A stretch of 64,000 bases of DNA, taken from contig JAOAPN010000006.1 in NCBI GenBank assembly GCA_025462885.1, positions 124,001-188,000 of the forward strand. Reading direction: 5' to 3'. Position 1 is the first letter of the stretch. Every line of letters starts with the position of its first letter. Shown here piece after piece: positions 44,488-57,546 of this stretch. Under the pieces are notes generated by a model. That model was not told the origin of the DNA and did not search any database. It saw nothing but the letters and a program-made list of their open reading frames with translations. This DNA comes from Acidobacteriaceae bacterium. Lineage in GTDB: Bacteria > Acidobacteriota > Terriglobia > Terriglobales > Acidobacteriaceae. The position numbers and the translations under genes are program-made.

Positions 44488-44563
44488 TGGTGGGCCCACC
44501 AGGATTTGAACCTGGAACCAAAGCGTTATGAGCACTCTGCTCTAACCGTTGAGCTATGGGCCC
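44488..44563 (-). tRNA. tRNA with CAT anticodon, probably elongator tRNA-Met
   Basis: On the minus strand: acceptor GGGCCCA/TGGGCCC, D stem GCTC/GAGC, anticodon loop CTCATAA (anticodon CAT), T arm CCAGG-TTCAAAT-CCTGG, and an encoded CCA. The G1-C72 pair excludes an initiator tRNA. tRNA-Ile2 also has a CAT anticodon (with lysidine), but the GGGCCCA acceptor fits elongator Met better. Confidence 0.92.
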
Positions 44564-45136
44564 TTTTGAAGTGGAGACCGTCCTGTTGAATCGGACGGAC
44601 GTATCGTAGTCTACCGTAAATGGAGAAAGCTGGAGGTAAGGTTTTGCCTCTCGAACTCCGGATCCTGCTGCAAACACGCTATTTGGTGGTGGTAGAGCCA
44701 GGGGTGGTATTCGAGTCCTCGGGAGCGGACGGGTTCAGATGACCCTTGGCGTTTTCCGGGGTTGGGGACTTGACCCCGGTATGGCCGGGGCCGGCGGTTG
44801 CAGGGTTATCTCCTCCTGGTCCAGATGGCTCGACGGCCGGGGACTTCGAGGTCTGCTGGGCTGATTTCCCGGTTGGAGCTAGGATGCCGGTGTCTGAAAT
44901 GGGCTTGAATAAATCGGGCATGGATGGGGACATGGGAATTCACCTGAAGAGCTTTGTTCTAAATGGGATCCGTCGCGTGTTTCTGTTCTTGAGACTGGGT
45001 TAAGGCGTGTCTGGTTGTCTACTTACGCAAGGCAGACAAAGTTCGGTAAGCTGTAGCTGCAAACAGCCACACATCACGACCCTGGCCATTGGATGGTTTT
45101 AATCTGCACTTTGCAAAGAGACAGGACAAAATCAGA
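44564..45136. other. mostly non-coding stretch between the tRNA and the exopolysaccharide locus
   Basis: About 570 bases. The only reasonable ORF is the 84-codon Pro/Ser/Thr-rich one on the minus strand (listed separately). The right half should contain the promoter of the exopolysaccharide genes, but no convincing -35/-10 pair was singled out. No known riboswitch or RNA pattern was recognised. Confidence 0.4.
44679..44933 (-). CDS. small low-complexity ORF, uncertain
   Basis: 84 codons rich in Pro, Ser, Gly and Thr (SPAVEPSGPGGDNPATAGPGHTGVK), with no hydrophobic core, signal peptide or domain. AGGTGAA lies before the ATG, a modest ribosome-binding site. It could be a disordered small protein downstream-oriented to the tRNA, or chance. 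An overlapping plus-strand ORF (44746-45003) looks no better. Confidence 0.3.
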   Translation of the reverse strand: MSPSMPDLFKPISDTGILAPTGKSAQQTSKSPAVEPSGPGGDNPATAGPGHTGVKSPTPENAKGHLNPSAPEDSNTTPGSTTTK

Positions 45137-47600
45137 GTGAAAGCAGCGCGGACAACCACATTTTAGGGCAGAACAGGCCGCCGGGCTGCAGTACCGGCAC
45201 TCGTTCTGGCTTTGATGGCTTTCACTCTCCCGTCGACCCTGCGAGCGCAGATGGATGCGGCCGCCAGCATCTTTGGTGGACAGCCTGCGCAAGACGGGAC
45301 AGACGGGCCCCGACTCTACTTCTAGGGTGCCGCAGAGCAACGTAGTCACAACGACTACGACGCGGAGAGGCATCGGCTCCCAGCCCAGCGCTGCTGGTGC
45401 GGCTACTGCGGCGGAACGCCAAGTGACCCGCCCTGCCATCGCACCCACACCCGATACCGAATTTCAAAGGATGGTGTCGGCGACGACGGGAAGGCAGCTT
45501 CCGATCTTCGGGGCGTCGCTCTTTGCAGGAGACGTTCCTTCGACCTTCGCCCCCGTGGACGATATCCCTGTCGCTCCCGACTATGTAATCGGTCCCGGAG
45601 ACGAGCTCCGCCTCCAGGTCTGGGGCCAGGTGAACCAGGAAGGTTCCTTCGTAGTGGACCGGACCGGGGCAATCTCAGTGCCCCAGATGGGGACCGTCCA
45701 CGTGTCGGGACAGCGCTACGACCAATTGAGCGATTTCCTGAAGGCCCAGTTCGGACGCGTCTACCGGAACTTCAACCTGAATGTGAACATGGGCCAGTTG
45801 CGCTCCATCCAGGTCTTCATTGTCGGACAGGCCCGCCGTCCCGGAAGCTATACCATCAGTTCGCTCAGCACGCTGCTGAACGCCCTGTTTGCCTCCGGCG
45901 GTCCCATGCCACAGGGGAGCGTGCGGGATATCCAGGTAAAGCGCGGAGCGGAGACCATCGTCCACTTCGATCTCTACGATCTGCTGCTGCACGGGGATAA
46001 GAGCAAAGATATCGTCCTGTCGCCCGGGGACGTGATCTTCAGCCCTGCTGTCGGTCCGCAGGTGGCCTTACTGGGCAGCGTGAATAATGCTGCCATCTAT
46101 GAATTAAAGAAAGACCCGGCCAGTGCGACCACTGTCTCGGATCTGTTGGAATTGGCGGGTGGCCGCACCAGCAGCGCAGCCGGAACTCAGGTCCGTCTCG
46201 AACGCATCGTGAACCACCAGGTGCTCAGCATCCTCGATGTCGACCTTGGCAGCACGGCAGGAGCTGTCTTACAGGGTGGAGATATGGTCTCGGTGACCTC
46301 CATTGTCGATCACTTTAAAGATGCCGTGACCTTGCGAGGAAACGTTGCGAATCCTGGTCGGTATGTCTGGCACACGGGGATGCGGGTTAGCGATCTGATT
46401 CCGAATAAAGACTCGCTCGTAACCCGCAACTACTGGCAGAAGCGCAACGAACTCGGCCAGCTACCTCGGGAGTATCAACCGCAGGTAGACAGCGGCGCTG
46501 CAGGGTCGCTCCAGGTCCGAGGCACAACCGATCTCGCCGCGACGGATCGCGTGACCGAAGGCGGTGCAGCCCGTGCGAGTGAAGGGGGCAATGCCCTGGG
46601 CGCGGCCCTCGCTGGCGGCAGTGGAATCTTTCACGGCATTACCGATGTCGTCTTGAGTGCGCCGGATATCAACTGGAGCTACACCGTCATCGAGCGGCAG
46701 AGAGCATCGGACCTGACCACGACGCTGATCTCCTTCAACCTGGGAAAGGTCGTCCTCGACGGAGATCAGTCGCAGAACATGGAGCTTCTGCCCGGGGATA
46801 TTGTAACGATCTTCTCGACAGCGGATTTGCGCGTTCCAACAACACAGCAGACGCGCTTCGTGAGACTCGAAGGGGAGTTCATTGCGGCAGGCGTCTACAG
46901 CGTGCAGCCCGGAGAGACGCTGCGGCAGTTGCTGAAGCGATCGGGCGGACTCACCCCTGAGGCGTATCTCTATGCGTCGGAGTTTACGCGGCAGTCTACC
47001 AAGCGGGTCGAGCAGCAACGATTGAATGAGTATGCGGACCAGCTCGAAGCCCAGGTCTCGGCGGAGACAAGCGGCATGATCGCGAAGTCCGTAACCGATC
47101 GGGATGCCTCGGCCGCCACTGCTTCTGCGACCGGCGCCTAGGCGGCGATCGCCCGTCTCCGTAGAATTCAGCCGGTGGGCCGCATCGTGTTGCCTCTGAA
47201 GCCGGACACTCGGAGCATCGACGATATTCCCGACTTGGCCCTTGAGGACGGCGATCGCTTCGTGGTGCCGCAGGTGCCGTCGAACGTCAATGTCGCCGGC
47301 CAGGTCTACAGCGCAAACGCGTTCGTGTTCGAGCGAGGGCATCGCGTGAAGGACTACCTGAAGGTCGCCGGCGGACCCAGCCGGCTGGCCAACACAAATC
47401 GTACCTTCGTGCTGCGGGCGGATGGCTCGGTCTTCAGCCATCAGTATGGCAATCTTGAGAAAGCAGTAATGTTCCCAGGCGATACCCTCATCGTACCGAT
47501 GAAGATCGACAAACGAGCTGTGCTTCGCACCCTGGTCGACGTTGCAACAGTCGTTGGGCAATTTGGGATCGGCGTCGCAGCGATCAATGTCTTGAAATGA
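45137..47600 (+). pseudogene. SLBB-domain polysaccharide export protein (Wza-like), broken by in-frame stops and a frameshift
   Basis: Outer-membrane polysaccharide export protein of about 800 residues. The ORF 45255-47141 holds the export motif (PDYVIGPGDELRLQVWGQVNQEG) and several SLBB domains (GQARRPGSYTISSLSTLLNALFASGG; GEFIAAGVYSVQPGETLRQLLKRSGG). It ends at TAG 47139-47141, but the same frame continues without a gap as AAIARLRRIQPVGRIVLPL..., the normal C-terminus, in ORF 47175-47600. Upstream, another frame encodes a good signal peptide (VPALVLALMAFTLPSTLRAQ) with GTG at 45137 and a TAG at 45164; it must be joined to the main frame by a one-base shift between about 45220 and 45328. Probably non-functional unless read through. 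Confidence 0.75.
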
Positions 47601-47631: not shown

Positions 47632-48780
47632 ATGAAGCAGGGACGCGGGCACCAACTGGATGAAGTCGAGTGGGATGTTGGGAACATCGTGCGCCGGTTG
47701 GTGGCAAAGCGGTCGACTCTACTAATATTTCTCCTTGCAGGGGCGATCGTTGGAATGGGAATTGCGCTGCTCCTGTCCCCGTGGTTCAAGGCCGAGGTGG
47801 TGTTCCTGCCGCCAAAGAATGCGGATCTGCCTGCCAGCCTCTCGGGCTCCTCACTCCTACGCAGCGAAGACACCAGCGATACCTATCTCGGTATGCTCAT
47901 GAGTCGCACGGTTGCAGAGGACGTCGTGGATCATGCCGGCCTGATGAAGGAATACAAGGCGATAACGCGCACCCAGGCAAAGAATGTTCTCTCGGCCAAC
48001 TCCAATTTCCTGGTCAACAAGAACTCGCTCATCGTGGTGGATGTGAAAGCAAAGACACCGCAGTTGGCGGCGAAGATTGCTGACGCGTATCTCGATGCAC
48101 TCTATCGCTTGAATGGTGAGATGGTCGCATCCGCGTCGTTCCATAGGCGGGAGTTTTTTGAGCAGCAACTGGACCAGCAGAAGAACGCATTGGCGCAAGC
48201 TGAGTTGGATATGAAAAAGACTTAGGAGGAGACGGGGCTTGTACTTCCCGCGGGCGAAGCGCAAGCCGGTTTGATGGCGACAGCGCAACTGCAAAGCGCC
48301 ATCGGAACAGCGGAGACGAGGCTAGCTGGCTTGTTGATGGGCGAGACGGAACAAAACCCGCAGGTGACGCAGGCGCGGGCTGAACTTGCAGCGTTGCGCG
48401 CTCAACTCCTCCGGCAGCAGGCCAATACAAAGACGCAAGCTCCTGGAGGCGGCTTGGCGTCGACGGCAAAATTGCCGGCGCTTACGCTGGAGTACATGCG
48501 AAAGGCGCGAGAACTTAAACTGAGGGAGTCGATCTACGATAGTCTCACCCAACAGTATGAAAAAGCGCGTATCGGTTCAATCGATCCTGGTCCGCAGTTG
48601 CAGGTGGTGGATCGAGCGATGATTCCCGAACAAAAGGCCGGACCGCCGCGAAGACTTTGGATGGTTGGAGGCGCTTTTGCCGGGTTGATTCTGGGATTGA
48701 TTCATGTTCTTGTGTGGACAAAATTCCAGAGGACCCTACGGGAGTTACTGTCACCTCCCACTGCCGAAGTCGAAGGGTAG
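47632..48780 (+). pseudogene. Wzz-like chain-length/polysaccharide co-polymerase, split by an in-frame TAG
   Basis: Two ORFs in one frame: 47614-48225 and 48271-48780. The first has the N-terminal helix (STLLIFLLAGAIVGMGIALLL) and the Wzz domain (FKAEVVFLPPKNADLP; VVDVKAKTPQLAAKIADAYLDAL). It stops at TAG (48223-48225) within a predicted coiled coil: AQAELDMKKT-stop-EETGLVLPAGEAQAGL. The second part continues the coiled coil and carries the second membrane helix (LWMVGGAFAGLILGLIHVLVW). CAG to TAG at this codon would explain the break. Start ATG 47632 follows GGAGG. The protein would set glycan chain length beside the SLBB exporter. Confidence 0.78.
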
Positions 48781-48783
48781 AGC

Positions 48784-50114
48784 GTGCAGGATACGAACGC
48801 TTCCATTCAAGCCCCCGAGGCTACCAATCTTTGGTGGGATAAGACTTTCCTGGTACTGGTGGCGACGCTGTCCTCCACCATCGTGCTCAAGGTCGCTCAG
48901 ATCCAATACTGGAGTGGATCTATTTCGTTCAAATCGGCGTCCTGCTGATTGCGTTTCACAGGAACCACTACAGAATCCGCCTGTTTCGGTCCCTGGCAAA
49001 ACTGGGTATTGCCTATACCTTGTTTTGCATCGTTGCCCTGATTCTGTCGCTTGCGGCGTTACGATTCGACTTTTTCTTGCCGGATATGCTGTCCGCAATG
49101 AAATATCCGGTCGTCATTACGGTGTCGCGTGTCGTAGAGCTGGTAGCTTCCGTGGTTATCATGTTTTACCTTGTGAGCGAGTTTGGCCATGACGTAATGA
49201 AGGTTCGGTTCACGATGCGCCTTTACTTCTGGGTGGGTTTCGCGAGCGCCGTCTACTCGATCGTCTGCTATCCACTGGACATCCTTGGGATTGCGAGCCT
49301 CGGAACATATTCCGATCTGCACCGCATGAGAGGGTTCATGAATGAGGGCGGTCCATATGGGTTATATATCCTCAGCGTCCTCCTGGTTGGAGTAGCTCTT
49401 TACCGCCAAGGCTGGGAGCCGACCCGGCGATTGGGTCTGTCGATGGCGGTGATCGGAATAGCATTCCTGAAGAGCGAATCGAAAGCTGCGTTAGCGGTGG
49501 CGCTTTTTTTGTTTCTTCTTAACGGTTTGATGGCTCGCAGCACAGGCAGGCGTGGCATAGTCATCGGAGCCACGATCTTGTTCCTGGCAATTTCCAGCCA
49601 GTTTGTGGACCTGGCAAGAGGGATTCGTATCTACCGGGAGGCGGGTGCGACGTATGAACGAGTTTCGCATCTGCACAAGCAGGATACGAGCTTCGTCGCA
49701 GGGTGGGTAGCAGGTGCGTTCCTTGTTCCCAGGATGATTGCTGCTCATCCCTGGAGCGGAATAGGCTGGGGGAACTATGCGACCATTAGGAATGCCCCGG
49801 AGTATCGCGGCGCTGCGGCATGGGCGAATCTCGCGGACGATCCCGGACTTGGCATCCTCGGTACAGTTGCGGAATTGGGAATCCTATTGGGTGCGTACCT
49901 GATGGTGTGTCTCATCTTTCCTTATTTGTACTTGCGGCGATTGGGAATGCCGCTCTATGTGACAAACCTGGCTTTGCTTCAACCTGTCGTTCACATTTTC
50001 GGAGCGCAGCTCAACATGACCTATCCTTGGATCGTTACCGCATTTGCCTTGGGTCTTGCCTGCGTCTTAGCAAAAAAAATAAGGCGAGATGAATTGTCGA
50101 AGGTCGCAGGCTGA
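48784..50114 (+). pseudogene. O-antigen ligase/polymerase-like membrane protein, frameshifted
   Basis: The start GTG (48784) opens a frame encoding LWWDKTFLVLVATLSSTIVLKVAQIQYW, a first helix, which then meets a stop. The adjacent frame continues with WIYFVQIGVLLIAFHRNHYRI and runs to 50114 with about ten helices (ORF 49020-50114). The two frames meet at TACTGG-AG-TGG (48910-48917), where one base appears missing. The WWDK start, many helices and the HPWSGIGWGNY motif in the periplasmic loop fit the O-antigen ligase/Wzy superfamily. Confidence 0.72.
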
Positions 50115-50196: not shown

Positions 50197-51156
50197 ATGA
50201 ACGAGAACAACATGGTTTCAAATGAGAGATATTCGGCACCAGGGGATCGAATCCTGTTGACAGGAGCATCCGGTCAGTTGGGCGGAGAATTGGTAGCCGC
50301 GCTGGCGCCGCTCGGTGAGGTGATCGCACCCGTAAGGGCGCAGATGGACCTCTCGGATGCGGCGGGCGATTTTCGTTTGCTCCGAGAGACGATTCGCGCG
50401 ATGCAACCGCGTTGGATCGTCAATCCTGCTGCGTACACGGCGGTAGACAGAGCCGAGAGTGAGCCGGAACTTGCCTATGCGGTAAACCGGGATGCGGTGC
50501 GGGCCATCGGTGAGGAGGCGCAAAGGATCGGCGCGGTCGTCCTCCATTTCTCTACCGACTATGTGTTCGACGGGCAAGGAACCACGGCCTATGCGGAGAC
50601 GGAGGCGACTGGGCCGGTGAGTGTGTACGGTGCAAGCAAGCTCGCGGGCGAGACGGCTCTGGCAAACACTGGAGCGGGACACATGATCTTTCGCACCAGT
50701 TGGGTCTATGGAAGCCGCGGGAAGAACTTTCTGCTGACGATTCTGAAGCTGGCTCGGGAAAAAGAGGTGCTGCGCATCGTAGGGGACCAGCACGGCGCTC
50801 CAACCTGGAGCAGGGATCTGGCAGGAATGACTGCGGCGGTGATGGCGCGCTGCGAGGTCGAGGCTGTCGATAGCTCGCTGGCCGACGTGATCGAGCGCGT
50901 GGGAGGGGTGTATCACGCGTCCGGAGGCGGCGAGACCACGTGGTTTGGATTTGCGGCGGAGGCGGTGCGCTTGATGAAGCTGGTCCAGCCGGAAGTGAAC
51001 TGGGCTAACATCGAGTCGATTGCAACATCAGAGTATCCGACGCCGGCGAAGCGTCCCGGAAACTCGCGACTGAACTGCGAAAAACTGAAGGAACAGTTTG
51101 GATGGTCGATGATGGATTGGCACGAGTCGCTACGTAAGGTGCTGTCGGAGTTGTGA
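50197..51156 (+). CDS. rfbD: dTDP-4-dehydrorhamnose reductase
   Basis: 319 residues, an extended short-chain dehydrogenase: ILLTGASGQLGGELVAAL (NADPH site), FSTDYVFDGQGTTAYAE, catalytic YGASKLAGE, FRTSWVYGSRGKNFLLTIL, and DQHGAPTWSRDLA. It reduces dTDP-4-dehydro-L-rhamnose to dTDP-L-rhamnose, a donor for polysaccharide synthesis. rfbA, rfbB and rfbC are not in the window. It reads intact although its upstream neighbours are damaged. The translation start may be the second Met (NNMVSN). Confidence 0.93.
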   Translation: MNENNMVSNERYSAPGDRILLTGASGQLGGELVAALAPLGEVIAPVRAQMDLSDAAGDFRLLRETIRAMQPRWIVNPAAYTAVDRAESEPELAYAVNRDAVRAIGEEAQRIGAVVLHFSTDYVFDGQGTTAYAETEATGPVSVYGASKLAGETALANTGAGHMIFRTSWVYGSRGKNFLLTILKLAREKEVLRIVGDQHGAPTWSRDLAGMTAAVMARCEVEAVDSSLADVIERVGGVYHASGGGETTWFGFAAEAVRLMKLVQPEVNWANIESIATSEYPTPAKRPGNSRLNCEKLKEQFGWSMMDWHESLRKVLSEL

Positions 51157-51210: not shown

Positions 51211-52119
51211 ATGCAGGAAGGAACGCGAGTCTGCGCGATTGTCGTGACCTGGCAACCTGGGCAGGAGGTTGCCGGCGAACTTGCGAGACTTCTTTCCCAG
51301 GTCGATGGGATGGTGGTTGTCGATAACGGATCGCGAGTCGAATTGCTGCAAGGAGTCCGCGAAACGAGTCGCGCGTCCGGCTTCAACTTAATCGAGTTGA
51401 AAGAGAACCTCGGTATTGCAGCGGCACAAAATATGGCAATCGCATGGGCAGAGGCGCAAGGTTTCGAGCTTGCCATCTTTTTTGACCAGGACAGTGCGGT
51501 CCCCAATAATTTTGTAAAGACAATGGTTATGTTTTATGACGAAGATTCCAGTAAGAGTACGCTTGCCATCGTAGCGCCACGGTATCGCGACAGCAGACTT
51601 GGAACGGATCTCGCGGCAGCACGAGTTGCGGACGGCGGACTTGCCCTTGCGATGTGCTCTGGAAGTCTGATTCCCTTGACGGTATTGCGTCGTATCGGAG
51701 GGTTTCAAGAGGATCTGTTTATCGACTACGTCGACTATGATTTTTCCCTCCGCGCGCGCGCCGCTGGATATATTCTGAAGGAGTGCAGCGCGGCTGTTCT
51801 ATTGCATGCGCCGGCAGACCCGCAACGTCGGATGCTCTTTTCGCTACTGCCTGTTACGACCGCGAATTACAGCGCGTCTCGACGGTATTATCTCGCCCGA
51901 AACCTGATCTGGATGGTGCGTCACTATAGCTTTCGTTTTCCCGCGATCTGTCTTTGGTTTGGACTCAATTTTTTGAAAGATAGTATCAAGATCGTGCTGG
52001 TCGAAGACAGCGCCCTAGAGAAGTCGCTCGCCTCGATGCGAGGGGTTGCGGACGGACTGCGAGGGAAGATGGGGCGGGCTTCCGGAGACGTCCGGGCAGC
52101 TCGCGGGAGGGCCTTTTGA
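51211..52119 (+). CDS. GT2-family glycosyltransferase (rhamnosyltransferase-like)
   Basis: 302 residues: CAIVVTWQPGQEVAGELARLLSQVDGMVVVDNGS is the nucleotide-sugar-binding start of GT-A enzymes, and FFDQDSAVPNNF has the acidic DxD-type motif. YVDYDFSLRARAAGY is the acceptor/catalytic segment common in rhamnosyl and related transferases. It follows rfbD, which makes dTDP-rhamnose, so rhamnose transfer is plausible. It reads intact and overlaps the next gene by 4 bases. Confidence 0.88.
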   Translation: MQEGTRVCAIVVTWQPGQEVAGELARLLSQVDGMVVVDNGSRVELLQGVRETSRASGFNLIELKENLGIAAAQNMAIAWAEAQGFELAIFFDQDSAVPNNFVKTMVMFYDEDSSKSTLAIVAPRYRDSRLGTDLAAARVADGGLALAMCSGSLIPLTVLRRIGGFQEDLFIDYVDYDFSLRARAAGYILKECSAAVLLHAPADPQRRMLFSLLPVTTANYSASRRYYLARNLIWMVRHYSFRFPAICLWFGLNFLKDSIKIVLVEDSALEKSLASMRGVADGLRGKMGRASGDVRAARGRAF

Positions 52120-53318
52120 AGATAATGCTCCTGTCGTCACTCTACCCGCCGCTCGGACGAGGCGGTGCAGAGAAGGCCGCGTCCCTGCTGGCCGAGGCGC
52201 TCGTGAAGGCCGGCCATGAGGTCAGCGTCATATCGTTTCAGTCTGGAAAAGACGCATCGGTAGAGCACCGGAACGGAGTCCGCGTTCATCGCATCCCGAT
52301 GGACAGTATGTACTGGCCCTTCGGGTGCGTTGAAAAAGAGCATCCCCTCATGCGGCTCCTGTGGCACGCGATCGATATCTGGAATTGGCGCAGCGCACGA
52401 CGGGTCGGCCGCATCCTCGATCTCGAAAAGCCTGACGTAGTGCACTCACACGTGATCGCAGGCTTCTCGGTCGCGGCATGGCGCGAGGTGCGAAAAAGAA
52501 AGATCCGGCTCGTCCACACGCTGCATGACTACTACATGCTTTGCGTGAGGTCGTCGCTCTTTCGGGATGGGCGCATCTGCGAGAGACGCTGTGGCACATG
52601 CACGGTGATGACGCAGGCTCGCAAGATGGCTTCGCAGAAGGTCGACCCGGTCGTCTCCGTGAGCCAATTTGTTCTGAAGCAGCATCAAGGATTCGGGTAC
52701 TTCAAGCAGGTACCGAGCTCAGTGGTATTCAACGTCATGGATGACTCTGGCGCTATGCTGTCTGAGCGCACGCGAACAGCGGAGGATGCGTTGATCTTTG
52801 GGTATATCGGCAAGATCGAGGAGCCTAAGGGGATCGAAGTTGTGCTCACGGCGACGCGGAGTTTGCCAGGGAACGATTGACGGCTGAGGATAGCCGGGGT
52901 TGGACTTCGGGACTACGTGGAACAGTTGAAAGCGCGATTTCCGGACCCAAGGATCGATTGGCTCGGTCTCACGGAATCAAGGGACTTTTATCAATCGATC
53001 GATGTGTCGATCGTGCCGTCCCTCTGGTTCGACCCGCTTCCGTATGTCACGATCGAGAGCCTTTTTGCTGGGAAGAGTCTTATCTGCGCTCGCTCGGGCG
53101 GGATCCCGGAGATAGCAGCACTGGGGAAGGTTGTCGAAGTATTTCCGGCCGGGGATACAACAGCGCTGGCGGCAATCATGGGGCGAGCTATAGAAGAGAA
53201 GACGAGGTGGCGACAGGGGGGATTTCTCAATCCGCAGAGTGCGCTTCTTTTTGCTGACTCGACGGTAGCGGCTTCGTATGAGACGAGCTATTGCTGCGGA
53301 CCGAATGGCGCTGCGTGA
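52116..53318 (+). pseudogene. GT4-family glycosyltransferase, interrupted by an in-frame TGA
   Basis: The first ORF (52116-52880, TTG start overlapping the GT2 stop) has the GT4 N-terminal domain (SSLYPPLGRGGAEKAASLLAEALVKAGHEVSVIS). It stops at TGA 52878-52880 in SLPGND-stop-RLRIAGVGLRDYVEQL. The same frame continues as the C-terminal donor-binding domain (ORF 52917-53318), with SIVPSLWFDPLPYVTIESLFAGKSLICARSGGIPE. A TGG (Trp) to TGA change at this codon restores a complete GT4 enzyme of about 400 residues. Confidence 0.78.
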
Positions 53319-53463
53319 CATTGCATCCCCATCTGGATTTGACTATCGTGAAGAGCGTGACAGGTGGAACAATCAAGGTCCTTGCAATATGTCCCTCTTT
53401 CTCTGAGCCCGAACTGCGCTCTCGACAGATGCACAGTGCGTCGAGTAGAGGGTGGTTTGCTGC

Positions 53464-54557
53464 ATGAAGACCTTCACCGCAGATCTGCGGATGTATCGGC
53501 ATTCGGGTATCGGACGTTACCTGCGGAACATCTTCCCCTTGCTGCTGCCGCAGCTTCAGGCGGACCGGGTGCGTGTCCTGGGCGAGCGGCCCTCTTCCAG
53601 AATGCTGGATGGCTCGGCGATCCGAGGGTTGAGGTCGTGCACAGTGAGGCGGCCGTTTACAGCATCGGGGAACAGACGCTGGGTCTTCGGGAAGCTTTTA
53701 GCGGAAGTGACCTGCTGTGGATCCCTCACTTCAACGCGCCCTTCCTTTATCCAGGACGGATACTGCTGACGATCCACGACATCGCTCCCCTCGCCATGCC
53801 GGAAATATTGGGCAATACGGTCAAGCGGCGCTACGCCAAGGTTCTGATTGAACGTGCCGTGCAGCGGGCGGTGGCGATCCTTGCAGACTCCGAGTTCACC
53901 GCGTCCGAGTTGCAAGATCGTCTGCATGTGAAAGCGGAAAAGATTACGGTCTCTTATCCCGGAATCGAAGCCTCATGGCCAGAGGCCGGGACCGCCCACG
54001 TTGAGGAGGACGGCAAGCCCTATCTTCTATATGTAGGCAACGTGAAGCCGAACAAGAATCTCAGTCTTCTCTTGCGGGCGTTTGCCCGTGCCGCGAAGGA
54101 TATTCCGTACCGGCTCCTTCTGGTGGGACGCCTCAAAGGTCTTGGCACCGGAGACGAGGGAGTGGTTCGGATGGCCGAGGCAATGGGAGACCGGGTTCGG
54201 TTTGCCGGGGCGGTCTCGGATGCGCAGTTGATCTCCATGTATGCGGGAGCCAGCGCATTTGTGCTCCCATCCCTCTATGAAGGGTTTGGTCTGCCCGTCC
54301 TGGAGGCGATGCGACTGGGGTGTCCCGTACTGTGTTCGACTGCGGCTTCGTTGCCGGAAGTGGCCGGAGATGCTGCAATGTACTTCGACCCCCACTCGGA
54401 GGAGCAGCTCGCCGAGTGCCTGGTCAGAATCCAGAACACTGGGATAGCGGAAGACCTCCGCCGAACTGGTCGGGACCAGGCGCGCAGGTTTAGCTTCGAG
54501 AGGTGCGCGGAACAGTCGGCGGCGCTGATGAATCGATGGATGGAGAACGGGAAATGA
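53464..54557 (+). pseudogene. second GT4-family glycosyltransferase, frameshifted near the N-terminus
   Basis: From ATG 53464 one frame encodes MKTFTADLRMYRHSGIGRYLRNIFPLLLPQLQADRVRVLGERP, the expected GT4 start. The rest of the enzyme is in the next frame (ORF 53364-54557) from LFQNAGWLGDPRVEVVHSEAAV onward. The frames join at GAGCGGCC-CTCTTCC (about 53590), where one C seems to be missing. The C-terminal domain is intact (YLLYVGNVKPNKNLSLLLRAFARA; SAFVLPSLYEGFGLPVLEAMRLGCPVLCS). The ORF-track N-terminus from 53364 is a shadow frame. Its stop overlaps the HAD gene start by 4 bases. Confidence 0.75.
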
Positions 54558-55105
54558 AGCAACGGGCATTGTTTCTGGATCGTGACGGAGTCGTCAACGA
54601 AGAGGTCGGATACCTCCATCGCACAGAGGATGTGCGATTTGTCGACGGAGTTTTCTCCCTGTGCAGGACTGCGGCGGGGCTTGGCTACCGGTTGGTCATC
54701 GTGACCAATCAGGCCGGAATCGCGCGCGGTTATTACACCGAGGAGGCGTTCCAGGAACTGATGGCCTGGATGCGCGAGCAAGCCAGAAAGCACGGAGTGG
54801 AGTGGGATGCGATCTATCACTGTCCGTACCATCCAGAGCACGGTATCGGACACTACAAACAGGAGCACGAAGATCGAAAACCTGGTATTGGGATGCTGCT
54901 GCGTGGCCAGAAGGCGTTTGGCCTGGACCTGACGCAGTGCGTGATGGTTGGCGATCGATGTACAGATATAGTGGCCGCGAATGCGGCAGGCCTGCGGCAG
55001 GCCTTTCTCGTTGATGGCACGGAGGATAGTGCTGCTTGCGCTGGTTCCTTTATTCCCGTTTCGGGACTGCGCGACGTTGAGTCCTGGTTGGTAGAGAAGG
55101 GATAA
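54554..55105 (+). CDS. HAD-IIIA phosphatase (GmhB/HisB-N-like)
   Basis: 183 residues: RALFLDRDGVVNEEVGYL (catalytic Asp pair), LVIVTNQAGIARGYY (Thr/Ser motif), and GDRCTDIVAANAAGL (acidic motif). It resembles D-glycero-D-manno-heptose-1,7-bisphosphate 7-phosphatase. In that family a zinc loop has Cys-x-His and two later Cys; here HCPYHPEHGIGHYKQEHEDRKPG lacks the later Cys pair, so zinc binding may be lost. It would serve ADP-heptose synthesis, consistent with the heptosyltransferase-like gene downstream. ATG 54554 overlaps the preceding stop. Confidence 0.85.
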   Translation: MKQRALFLDRDGVVNEEVGYLHRTEDVRFVDGVFSLCRTAAGLGYRLVIVTNQAGIARGYYTEEAFQELMAWMREQARKHGVEWDAIYHCPYHPEHGIGHYKQEHEDRKPGIGMLLRGQKAFGLDLTQCVMVGDRCTDIVAANAAGLRQAFLVDGTEDSAACAGSFIPVSGLRDVESWLVEKG

Positions 55106-55573
55106 GCATCCGAATAAGCACTGGGCCAGGGCCTTAGCGCAGGATAAATTCTGCTCATGGCCTTCTTTTGCACGACTGTGTACGACATTTCGGGTTTTTG
55201 GCAATATCGCTTGTCAAACGCCACGTTTTTGGCTACTGTGAGCACACTTGCTTTACTTGAAGTTCTTCAATTGCAATAAGATGTACCCACTTGGTATAGT
55301 GAGTCTAAAGTTTAGGACTTTGCTAGATCCGGGGTGCCCGTTAGTAAACTGAATTGACTGAGCCATTGGCATTGCTCCTTCCGCCTTATGAATGCACTGA
55401 CGGTTCGATGACTGCTTTTCTCTACTCCCCTGCTAATAGATGATGAAGCGTAAGGTGGATAAGCAAGATTCGAGTAACGGCCCTTCAGAAGTTGTGGCCG
55501 TTTCGTGACGATGCGGGGCTGCGAGGCGGAGTGATACTAATAACTGCGAGACCATTCAAGCAAGATAACCGGC
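55106..55573. other. long intergenic region upstream of the sugar transferase
   Basis: About 470 bases, lower in GC than its surroundings, with no good ORF. It should carry a promoter for the sugar transferase gene. TTGCAA (55271-55276) and TATAGT (55295-55300), spaced by 18 bases, are a candidate pair; they would give a 5' leader of about 265 bases. No known riboswitch fold was recognised. Confidence 0.4.
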
Positions 55574-56371
55574 ATGGCATACACGGAACGTTGCCTCTCA
55601 GGGGCTGCGCCATGCAAAGACAGGACTATGATCTTGGCTGAATATCAATCTCCTGAGTCGCAGATAGCGACCGCTGAGGGCTCATTCCCCTACACAGGAA
55701 CGACCCGCCAGTCTTATTCCAGATCCTACCGTTCCAATCGCATCCCGGCGAAGCTCATTCGGTATCGCATCGTAAAGCGATGTCTGGATATATCCCTGGT
55801 GGTGGCGATGACGCCGGTCTTATTTCCCCTCCTGATCGTTATTGCAGCGATTGTAAAGTTCAATTCCCCTGGACCGGTCTTCTACTCGCATCGGCGAATT
55901 CGCCGCAACGGCGAGTTCTTCTCGATGTGGAAGTTCCGCACCATGTGTCAAAACTCGGCAGAAGTACTGGATCAACATCTGTCCAGGCATCCCGAGGCAC
56001 GGGCGGAGTGGAATAAGTCTCACAAGCTCAAGAAGGATCCCAGGGTTACTCCGATGGGGTCGTTTCTGCGTCGGTACAGTCTCGACGAGTTGCCGCAGAT
56101 GTGGAATGTGTTATCCGGACAGATGAGCCTGGTAGGGCCTCGTCCCATCGTGGCGGCAGAAGTGGAAAAGTATGGCGATTGCTTCGGATGCTATTGCCGC
56201 GTGAAACCGGGTCTTACGGGGCTGTGGCAGGTCTCGGGCAGGAGCACCTTGAGCTACGACGAGCGCGTTGCATTGGACTGCGAGTATGTAGAGCGCTGGT
56301 CGTTGAGCAGGGATTTCGTGATCCTACTTAAGACTTTTATGTCGGTCGTCAACCCGGAAGGCGCCTTCTAG
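55574..56371 (+). CDS. bacterial sugar transferase (undecaprenyl-phosphate glycosyl-1-phosphate transferase)
   Basis: 265 residues in the short form: a soluble N-terminal tail, one membrane helix ([24 protein letters not shown]) and the catalytic domain with [36 protein letters not shown] and [13 protein letters not shown]. These enzymes start polysaccharide repeat units by moving a sugar-1-phosphate to undecaprenyl phosphate. The ATG at 55574 is used; an ATG at 55628 is an alternative start. The frame is intact. Confidence 0.92.
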
Positions 56372-56417: not shown

Positions 56418-57546
56418 ATGCAACGAGGCAGCCTAGCGAACAGGCAGATGGATTTCAGGCTTGGAATTCCATTGCTGAACACTTTGGCGACGTTCCGGCG
56501 GAGACGTGCGTGGCCCACTGCCATTCGCCGGGTGGGCGTAATGTGTTCTCCGGCTTTGGGAGACACCCTTCTCTTTTCGGGTGCGCTGCAGGACGTCCGC
56601 CGTCACTTTCCGGAAGCTGAGATCGTTCATTTCTGCATGAGCCAGAACCTTGCCGCCGCCGAGTTGATTCCCGGGGCTGACCGGCGCGTCGTGATCGTGT
56701 TGACCAAGCTGGGCGCGACGATTCGCCAGTTGCGAGCCGAGCGGCTGGATGTCCTGCTGGACTTCACCTCGTGGCAGCGTCTGACAGCGTTTTACAGCAT
56801 GATGGCGGGAGCTCAATTTTGTGCGGGCTTCAAGACCCCGGGACAGTACCGGTCGCGCGGATATGACCTCGCAATTCAGCATCGAGACGATCGGCACGAG
56901 GTGGAGAACTTTCGAGAGCTGCTACGAGGGTTGGGGATCGAAGTTGGATCCACGCCGCAGGCAGTCGTCCCGGACGGAGCCAGGCCGCTGGCGCACGAGC
57001 GGGATGTGGTGGTACTTCACCTTTGGCTTCCGGTGTTCGGAGCTGGCTGCGCGAGTGGCCGGAGGAGCGCTGGATCGCGTTGGCACATCGCATCGGCCGG
57101 GAGGAGACGCTGTTCGCCATCACAGCTCATCCGAGGATATGTGGAGAGCTCAGCCGTTCGTTCGCAGGATGGAGGAGGCTGGACTCAGGGCCGAAACATT
57201 CGCGGGTACTGACGGCTTTGTGAGTCTCGCACGCATGCTGGCGGGAGCTCGGGTGCTGGTGAGCGTCAATACGGGCATTATGCATTTGGGAGCGATCCTT
57301 GGAACTCCGACCGTTTCGATCAATGGACCGAATCGGAATGGACGCTGGGGACCCGTCGGGCCGCTGGCTGTGGGAGTGGAAGCGCCGGGAGAAGGGTGTG
57401 GATATTTGCACCTGGGATTCAACTTCGATGGGCAGGCGACAGACTGTATGAACCGGATTACGGTGGAGATGGTAGAAGCGGCGGCGGCGCAGGTGTCGAC
57501 TGTACCGCAGGTGACGGTGGTGGATGCTGACCTCCAGATAAATTGA
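56418..57546 (+). pseudogene. heptosyltransferase (GT9-like), broken by two frameshifts
   Basis: Three frames together give one GT9 enzyme. The first (ORF 56418-57212) has VGVMCSPALGDTLLFSGALQDVRRHFPEAEIVHFC and runs sensibly to VVVLHL. The second holds ASGVRSWLREWPEERWIALAHRIGREETLFAITAHP (within ORF 57023-57223). The third (ORF 56821-57546) continues with EDMWRAQPFVRRMEEAGLRAETFAG and the conserved VSVNTGIMHLGAILGTPTVSINGP. Each junction (57024-57027; 57131-57135) is restored by adding one G. The family transfers heptose or related sugars to LPS. Confidence 0.78.

Follow-up and report, generated by a model that had tools for sequence, protein, structure and literature searches.

Introduction

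Why is a polysaccharide export gene of a soil acidobacterium interrupted by an amber codon behind which its reading frame continues unchanged? The gene belongs to the SLBB export family and lies on a 319-kb contig of what is most likely a Granulicella genome (5.26 Mb in 16 contigs, 99.5% complete), within the 64-kb stretch of DNA analyzed here as a whole and called the window. It is split by a TAG at 47139-47141 into an open reading frame at 45255-47141 and a second one, opening with GTG, at 47175-47600. A sequence-only reading of this stretch had described two ORFs in the same frame parted by that single codon, and their frames and coordinates proved to be exactly as claimed. Exopolysaccharide is thought to aid the survival of soil acidobacteria (PMC5259719). 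A literature search returned precedents for inactivated capsule loci and for classes of OPX proteins, and nothing on this locus. By comparing the gene and its neighbors with those of congeners, we arrive at the view, to which we assign a probability of about 0.87, that the amber codon is one inactivating mutation among several in a recently silenced surface- or exo-polysaccharide cluster of the Wzx/Wzy type in a Granulicella species.

The exporter gene

The broken SLBB/Poly_export (OPX) gene extends from 45137 to 47600 on the forward strand, as delimited by its domains, by homologue alignment and, for the 5' start, by DNA alignment. Its first part matches Poly_export (68.7 bits), SLBB (85.3 bits) and SLBB_2 (67.4 bits), as well as Wza chains in the PDB (E about 1e-11), and the SLBB score rises from 85.3 to 99.1 bits when the stop is read as X. 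OPX proteins (PF02563/SLBB) have a Poly_export domain and, behind it, at least one SLBB domain, which is the order seen here. The orphaned C-terminal part, 152 codons at 47142-47600 (+) placed by alignment to congeners, matches no Pfam family by itself and, at E up to 1, nothing in the PDB. Over their full length these codons align, at 49-84% identity, with the C-terminal end of SLBB exporters, and a hydrophobic tail is visible 3' of the TAG. Members of the OPX family end either in a Wza_C-type membrane helix (class 1) or in a GfcC module (class 2). Congener SLBB exporters are single open frames of 745-1177 codons, and the gene is open through the amber point as one frame in all 24 congeners searched. 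Because the part behind the TAG aligns with these single-frame exporters, chance juxtaposition of two ORFs was rejected, and on the alignments the pair reads as one gene.

At the column of the amber codon (47139-47141, +), 17 aligned relatives have Gln (10), Arg (5), Asn (1) or Glu (1). The nearest homologue, that of G007, is 80% identical and has Gln there in a surrounding stretch that is nearly the same. A Gln codon as the ancestor, proposed earlier from the letters of this gene, is well supported since Gln occupies the column in the nearest homologue and in 10 of the 17 relatives, and the most likely origin of the amber codon would be a C-to-T change turning CAG into TAG.

A further lesion affects the beginning of the gene, where the stretch LALMAFTLPSTLRAQ (45200-45250), which resembles a signal peptide, lies in another frame than the body of the exporter, with the frame break at about 45250-45325, between signal peptide and main body. 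Additionally, a TAG at 45164 follows nine codons past a GTG that aligns with the GTG of G007. The 5' start was deduced by aligning the DNA with that of a single relative (L076/G007). Because the region is poorly conserved, this lesion is the least certain of all. The exporter lacks the in-frame N-terminal signal sequence of OPX members and, as the signal-like stretch is out of frame with the body, the gene would appear to be a remnant of an OPX member rather than a working one. Like genes of the Wza/KpsD family of OPX proteins (PF02563 + SLBB), it stands beside wzz and glycosyltransferase genes; unlike the working members, it is broken by the amber codon and the 5' frame change.

The polysaccharide cluster

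The amber codon is one of several lesions, as four further genes of the cluster, all on the forward strand, are broken too. Directly downstream lies wzz (47632-48780), which encodes a PF02706/GNVR chain-length regulator according to profile match and homologue alignment and is interrupted by an in-frame TAG (48223-48225) in a column of Gln or Glu. Both halves of wzz are conserved, and an intact homologue was found in 13 of 15 congeners searched. Comparison with homologues places a frame change, net -1 mod 3, near 48908-48942 in the O-antigen ligase/Wzy-like membrane gene that follows (48784-50114); this gene is intact in G022 and G006 (443-465 codons), which share the order SLBB-wzz-ligase, and also in G015. 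A GT4-fold glycosyltransferase gene (52116-53318) is cut midway through its group-1 domain by an in-frame TGA (52878-52880), and the domain match spans the stop only with both halves joined. Homologue matches to this gene within the genus were only marginal, so the residue at the TGA is unreadable from relatives. Finally, the family-9 glycosyltransferase gene (56418-57530) has two frame changes (about 57049; 57110-57135) and crosses three frames relative to an intact 381-codon homologue in G015.

Among these broken genes lie intact rmlD (dTDP-4-dehydrorhamnose reductase, 50197-51156), a family-2 glycosyltransferase gene (51211-52119) and a group-1 glycosyltransferase gene (53364-54557), both with open frames, and intact genes for a HAD-family phosphatase (54503-55105) and a bacterial sugar transferase, the initiating phosphoglycosyltransferase (55574-56371). 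The last two are separated by about 470 bases (55105-55574) in which no long frame is open, possibly a promoter or a gene remnant.

Relatives thus retain intact orthologues of the SLBB, wzz, ligase-like and family-9 glycosyltransferase genes, and the several independent disabling lesions are confined to the locus, as in a pseudogene cluster. Lesions affect 5 of about 10 cluster genes, compared with none of about 30 recognizable genes elsewhere in the 64-kb window, and the chance of all five falling inside the cluster is 252/658008, about 4e-4 (Fisher). When same-frame ORF pairs along the 319-kb contig were judged by eye, the only recognizable split genes were those of this cluster. A lesion-rate control against contig C50 of G015 offered little synteny and only 19 comparable genes, with most of its flags being likely antisense or upstream artefacts. 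Since the lesions are concentrated in the cluster, a generally poor assembly is disfavored; the concentration argues against that, yet not against a locally poor one.

Age of the probable inactivation and the possibility of sequence error

Against G007, dS is about 2.4, near saturation, and dN/dS is about 0.05, so purifying selection has acted on the genes for nearly all their history. Lineage-specific amino-acid changes over the SLBB gene number 44 here and 34 in the nearest homologue, no significant excess, and the changes 3' of the exporter stop (11 here versus 4) do not differ significantly either. Invariant columns are kept at 150 of 152 positions, with 2 changed. From three nonsense changes one expects that roughly 75-95 neutral point changes have accumulated across the cluster, a number that would bring with it only about two to three violations of invariant columns. 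Residues outside the lesions show no excess decay, which by itself speaks against an inactivated cluster unless the inactivation is recent; the residue data are consistent with a very recent inactivation, and local sequence errors would fit them too.

The main rival to recent silencing is that sequencing or assembly went wrong locally and that the organism itself has an intact cluster. Several of the lesions are single-base, they come without an accompanying excess of missense changes, and they are known from one assembly only. Error is improbable, because the lesions are confined to one functional cluster of a genome that is 99.5% complete in 16 contigs, because about 30 genes beside that cluster in the window are clean, and because the lesions mix C-to-T-type stops with frame changes and lie outside long homopolymers.

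Natural division and read-through

A natural division of the gene into two working proteins, the second starting at GTG 47175, would account for a second ORF that is open and conserved, and we consider it very unlikely. The sequence-only reading had named homologues ending at this point and followed by a separate C-terminal gene as the observation that would speak against a single interrupted gene, and the split form occurs in none of the 24 congeners. No Shine-Dalgarno-like sequence was seen by eye before GTG 47175, the second part is without a signal peptide, and no promoter-like site was found in the region; a separate C-terminal gene was rejected on the absence of a split congener form and of a promoter-like site.

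Still less likely is that a suppressor tRNA or programmed read-through inserts glutamine at TAG and yields full-length exporter and Wzz, a proposal that would suit the Gln or Gln/Glu columns at which both TAGs stand and the conserved halves downstream of them. The interrupted gene had been presented earlier as a lone amber and a candidate for read-through, a description that is not supported in view of the break at the exporter's 5' end, the broken wzz, ligase/Wzy-like and two glycosyltransferase genes, and the translation apparatus of the genome. Among the 45 tRNAs found, no CUA anticodon occurs, so that a suppressor tRNA is missing from this set, and the gene for RF1 (prfA) is present at 514.6 bits, above the curated cut-off. 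TAG is moreover the commonest stop on the contig, ending 85 of 206 long ORFs. The marks of TAG reassignment, namely a CUA tRNA together with a lost RF1 or a rare TAG, are thus all absent. The contig holds no other recognizable TAG-split gene, and RNA structure after the two TAGs is not unusual (z 1.7 and -0.8). Read-through would also leave the frameshifts and the TGA of the cluster unexplained, the former not being suppressible in this way. Amber suppression and a change of code were therefore rejected, the grounds being the tRNA set, the presence of RF1, the use of stops, RNA folding and the frameshifts. Simple mutation models predict that about one in two nonsense changes in these genes yields TAG; with three nonsense changes, two that give TAG are to be expected (P about 0.5). 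Because neighboring genes are broken as well, the amber codon should not be read as recoding. Least probable of all is a conditional form of the idea, in which UAG read as Gln in exporter and Wzz is a switch on polysaccharide export.

Predicted consequences and related systems

Under the preferred reading, recent silencing of the cluster, translation would end at the TAG, and the resulting exporter would lack 152 C-terminal residues with the last SLBB-like part and the hydrophobic tail; at the opposite end the signal peptide would be out of frame. In KpsD, an OPX protein, C-terminal truncation by 11 residues abolished function (PMC9603273). By analogy with that small truncation, an exporter that has lost 152 residues and whose signal peptide stands in another frame should be defunct. 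Breaks in wzz, in the ligase/polymerase-like gene and in two glycosyltransferase genes add to this, so that we predict a silent pathway. Both the loss of function and the order of events are inferred from the DNA. Besides the broken copies, two wzz homologues and two SLBB exporter genes (989 and 1007 codons) are intact in the genome; presumably the organism gets by with its other SLBB loci, or tolerates loss of the polymer.

A recently inactivated polysaccharide locus with several pseudogenes is of a known kind. Inactivated capsule loci with several pseudogenes have been surveyed in Klebsiella (PMC8259999), and as in those loci several genes of one polysaccharide locus are disrupted here while other genes remain intact. 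In contrast to that survey, the present case concerns a soil acidobacterium and a single genome rather than a population, and the gene that Klebsiella loses most often (PMC8259999), that of the initiating sugar transferase, is intact here. The locus may offer a case for how polysaccharide loci get lost while paralogous exporters persist.

Directly 5' of the cluster, a tRNA-Met (CAT) gene occupies 44488-44563 on the reverse strand. On the same strand, a short frame at 44682-44837 shares 74-77% identity with frames that lie upstream of the SLBB gene in both G006 and G020, and is possibly a small conserved gene.
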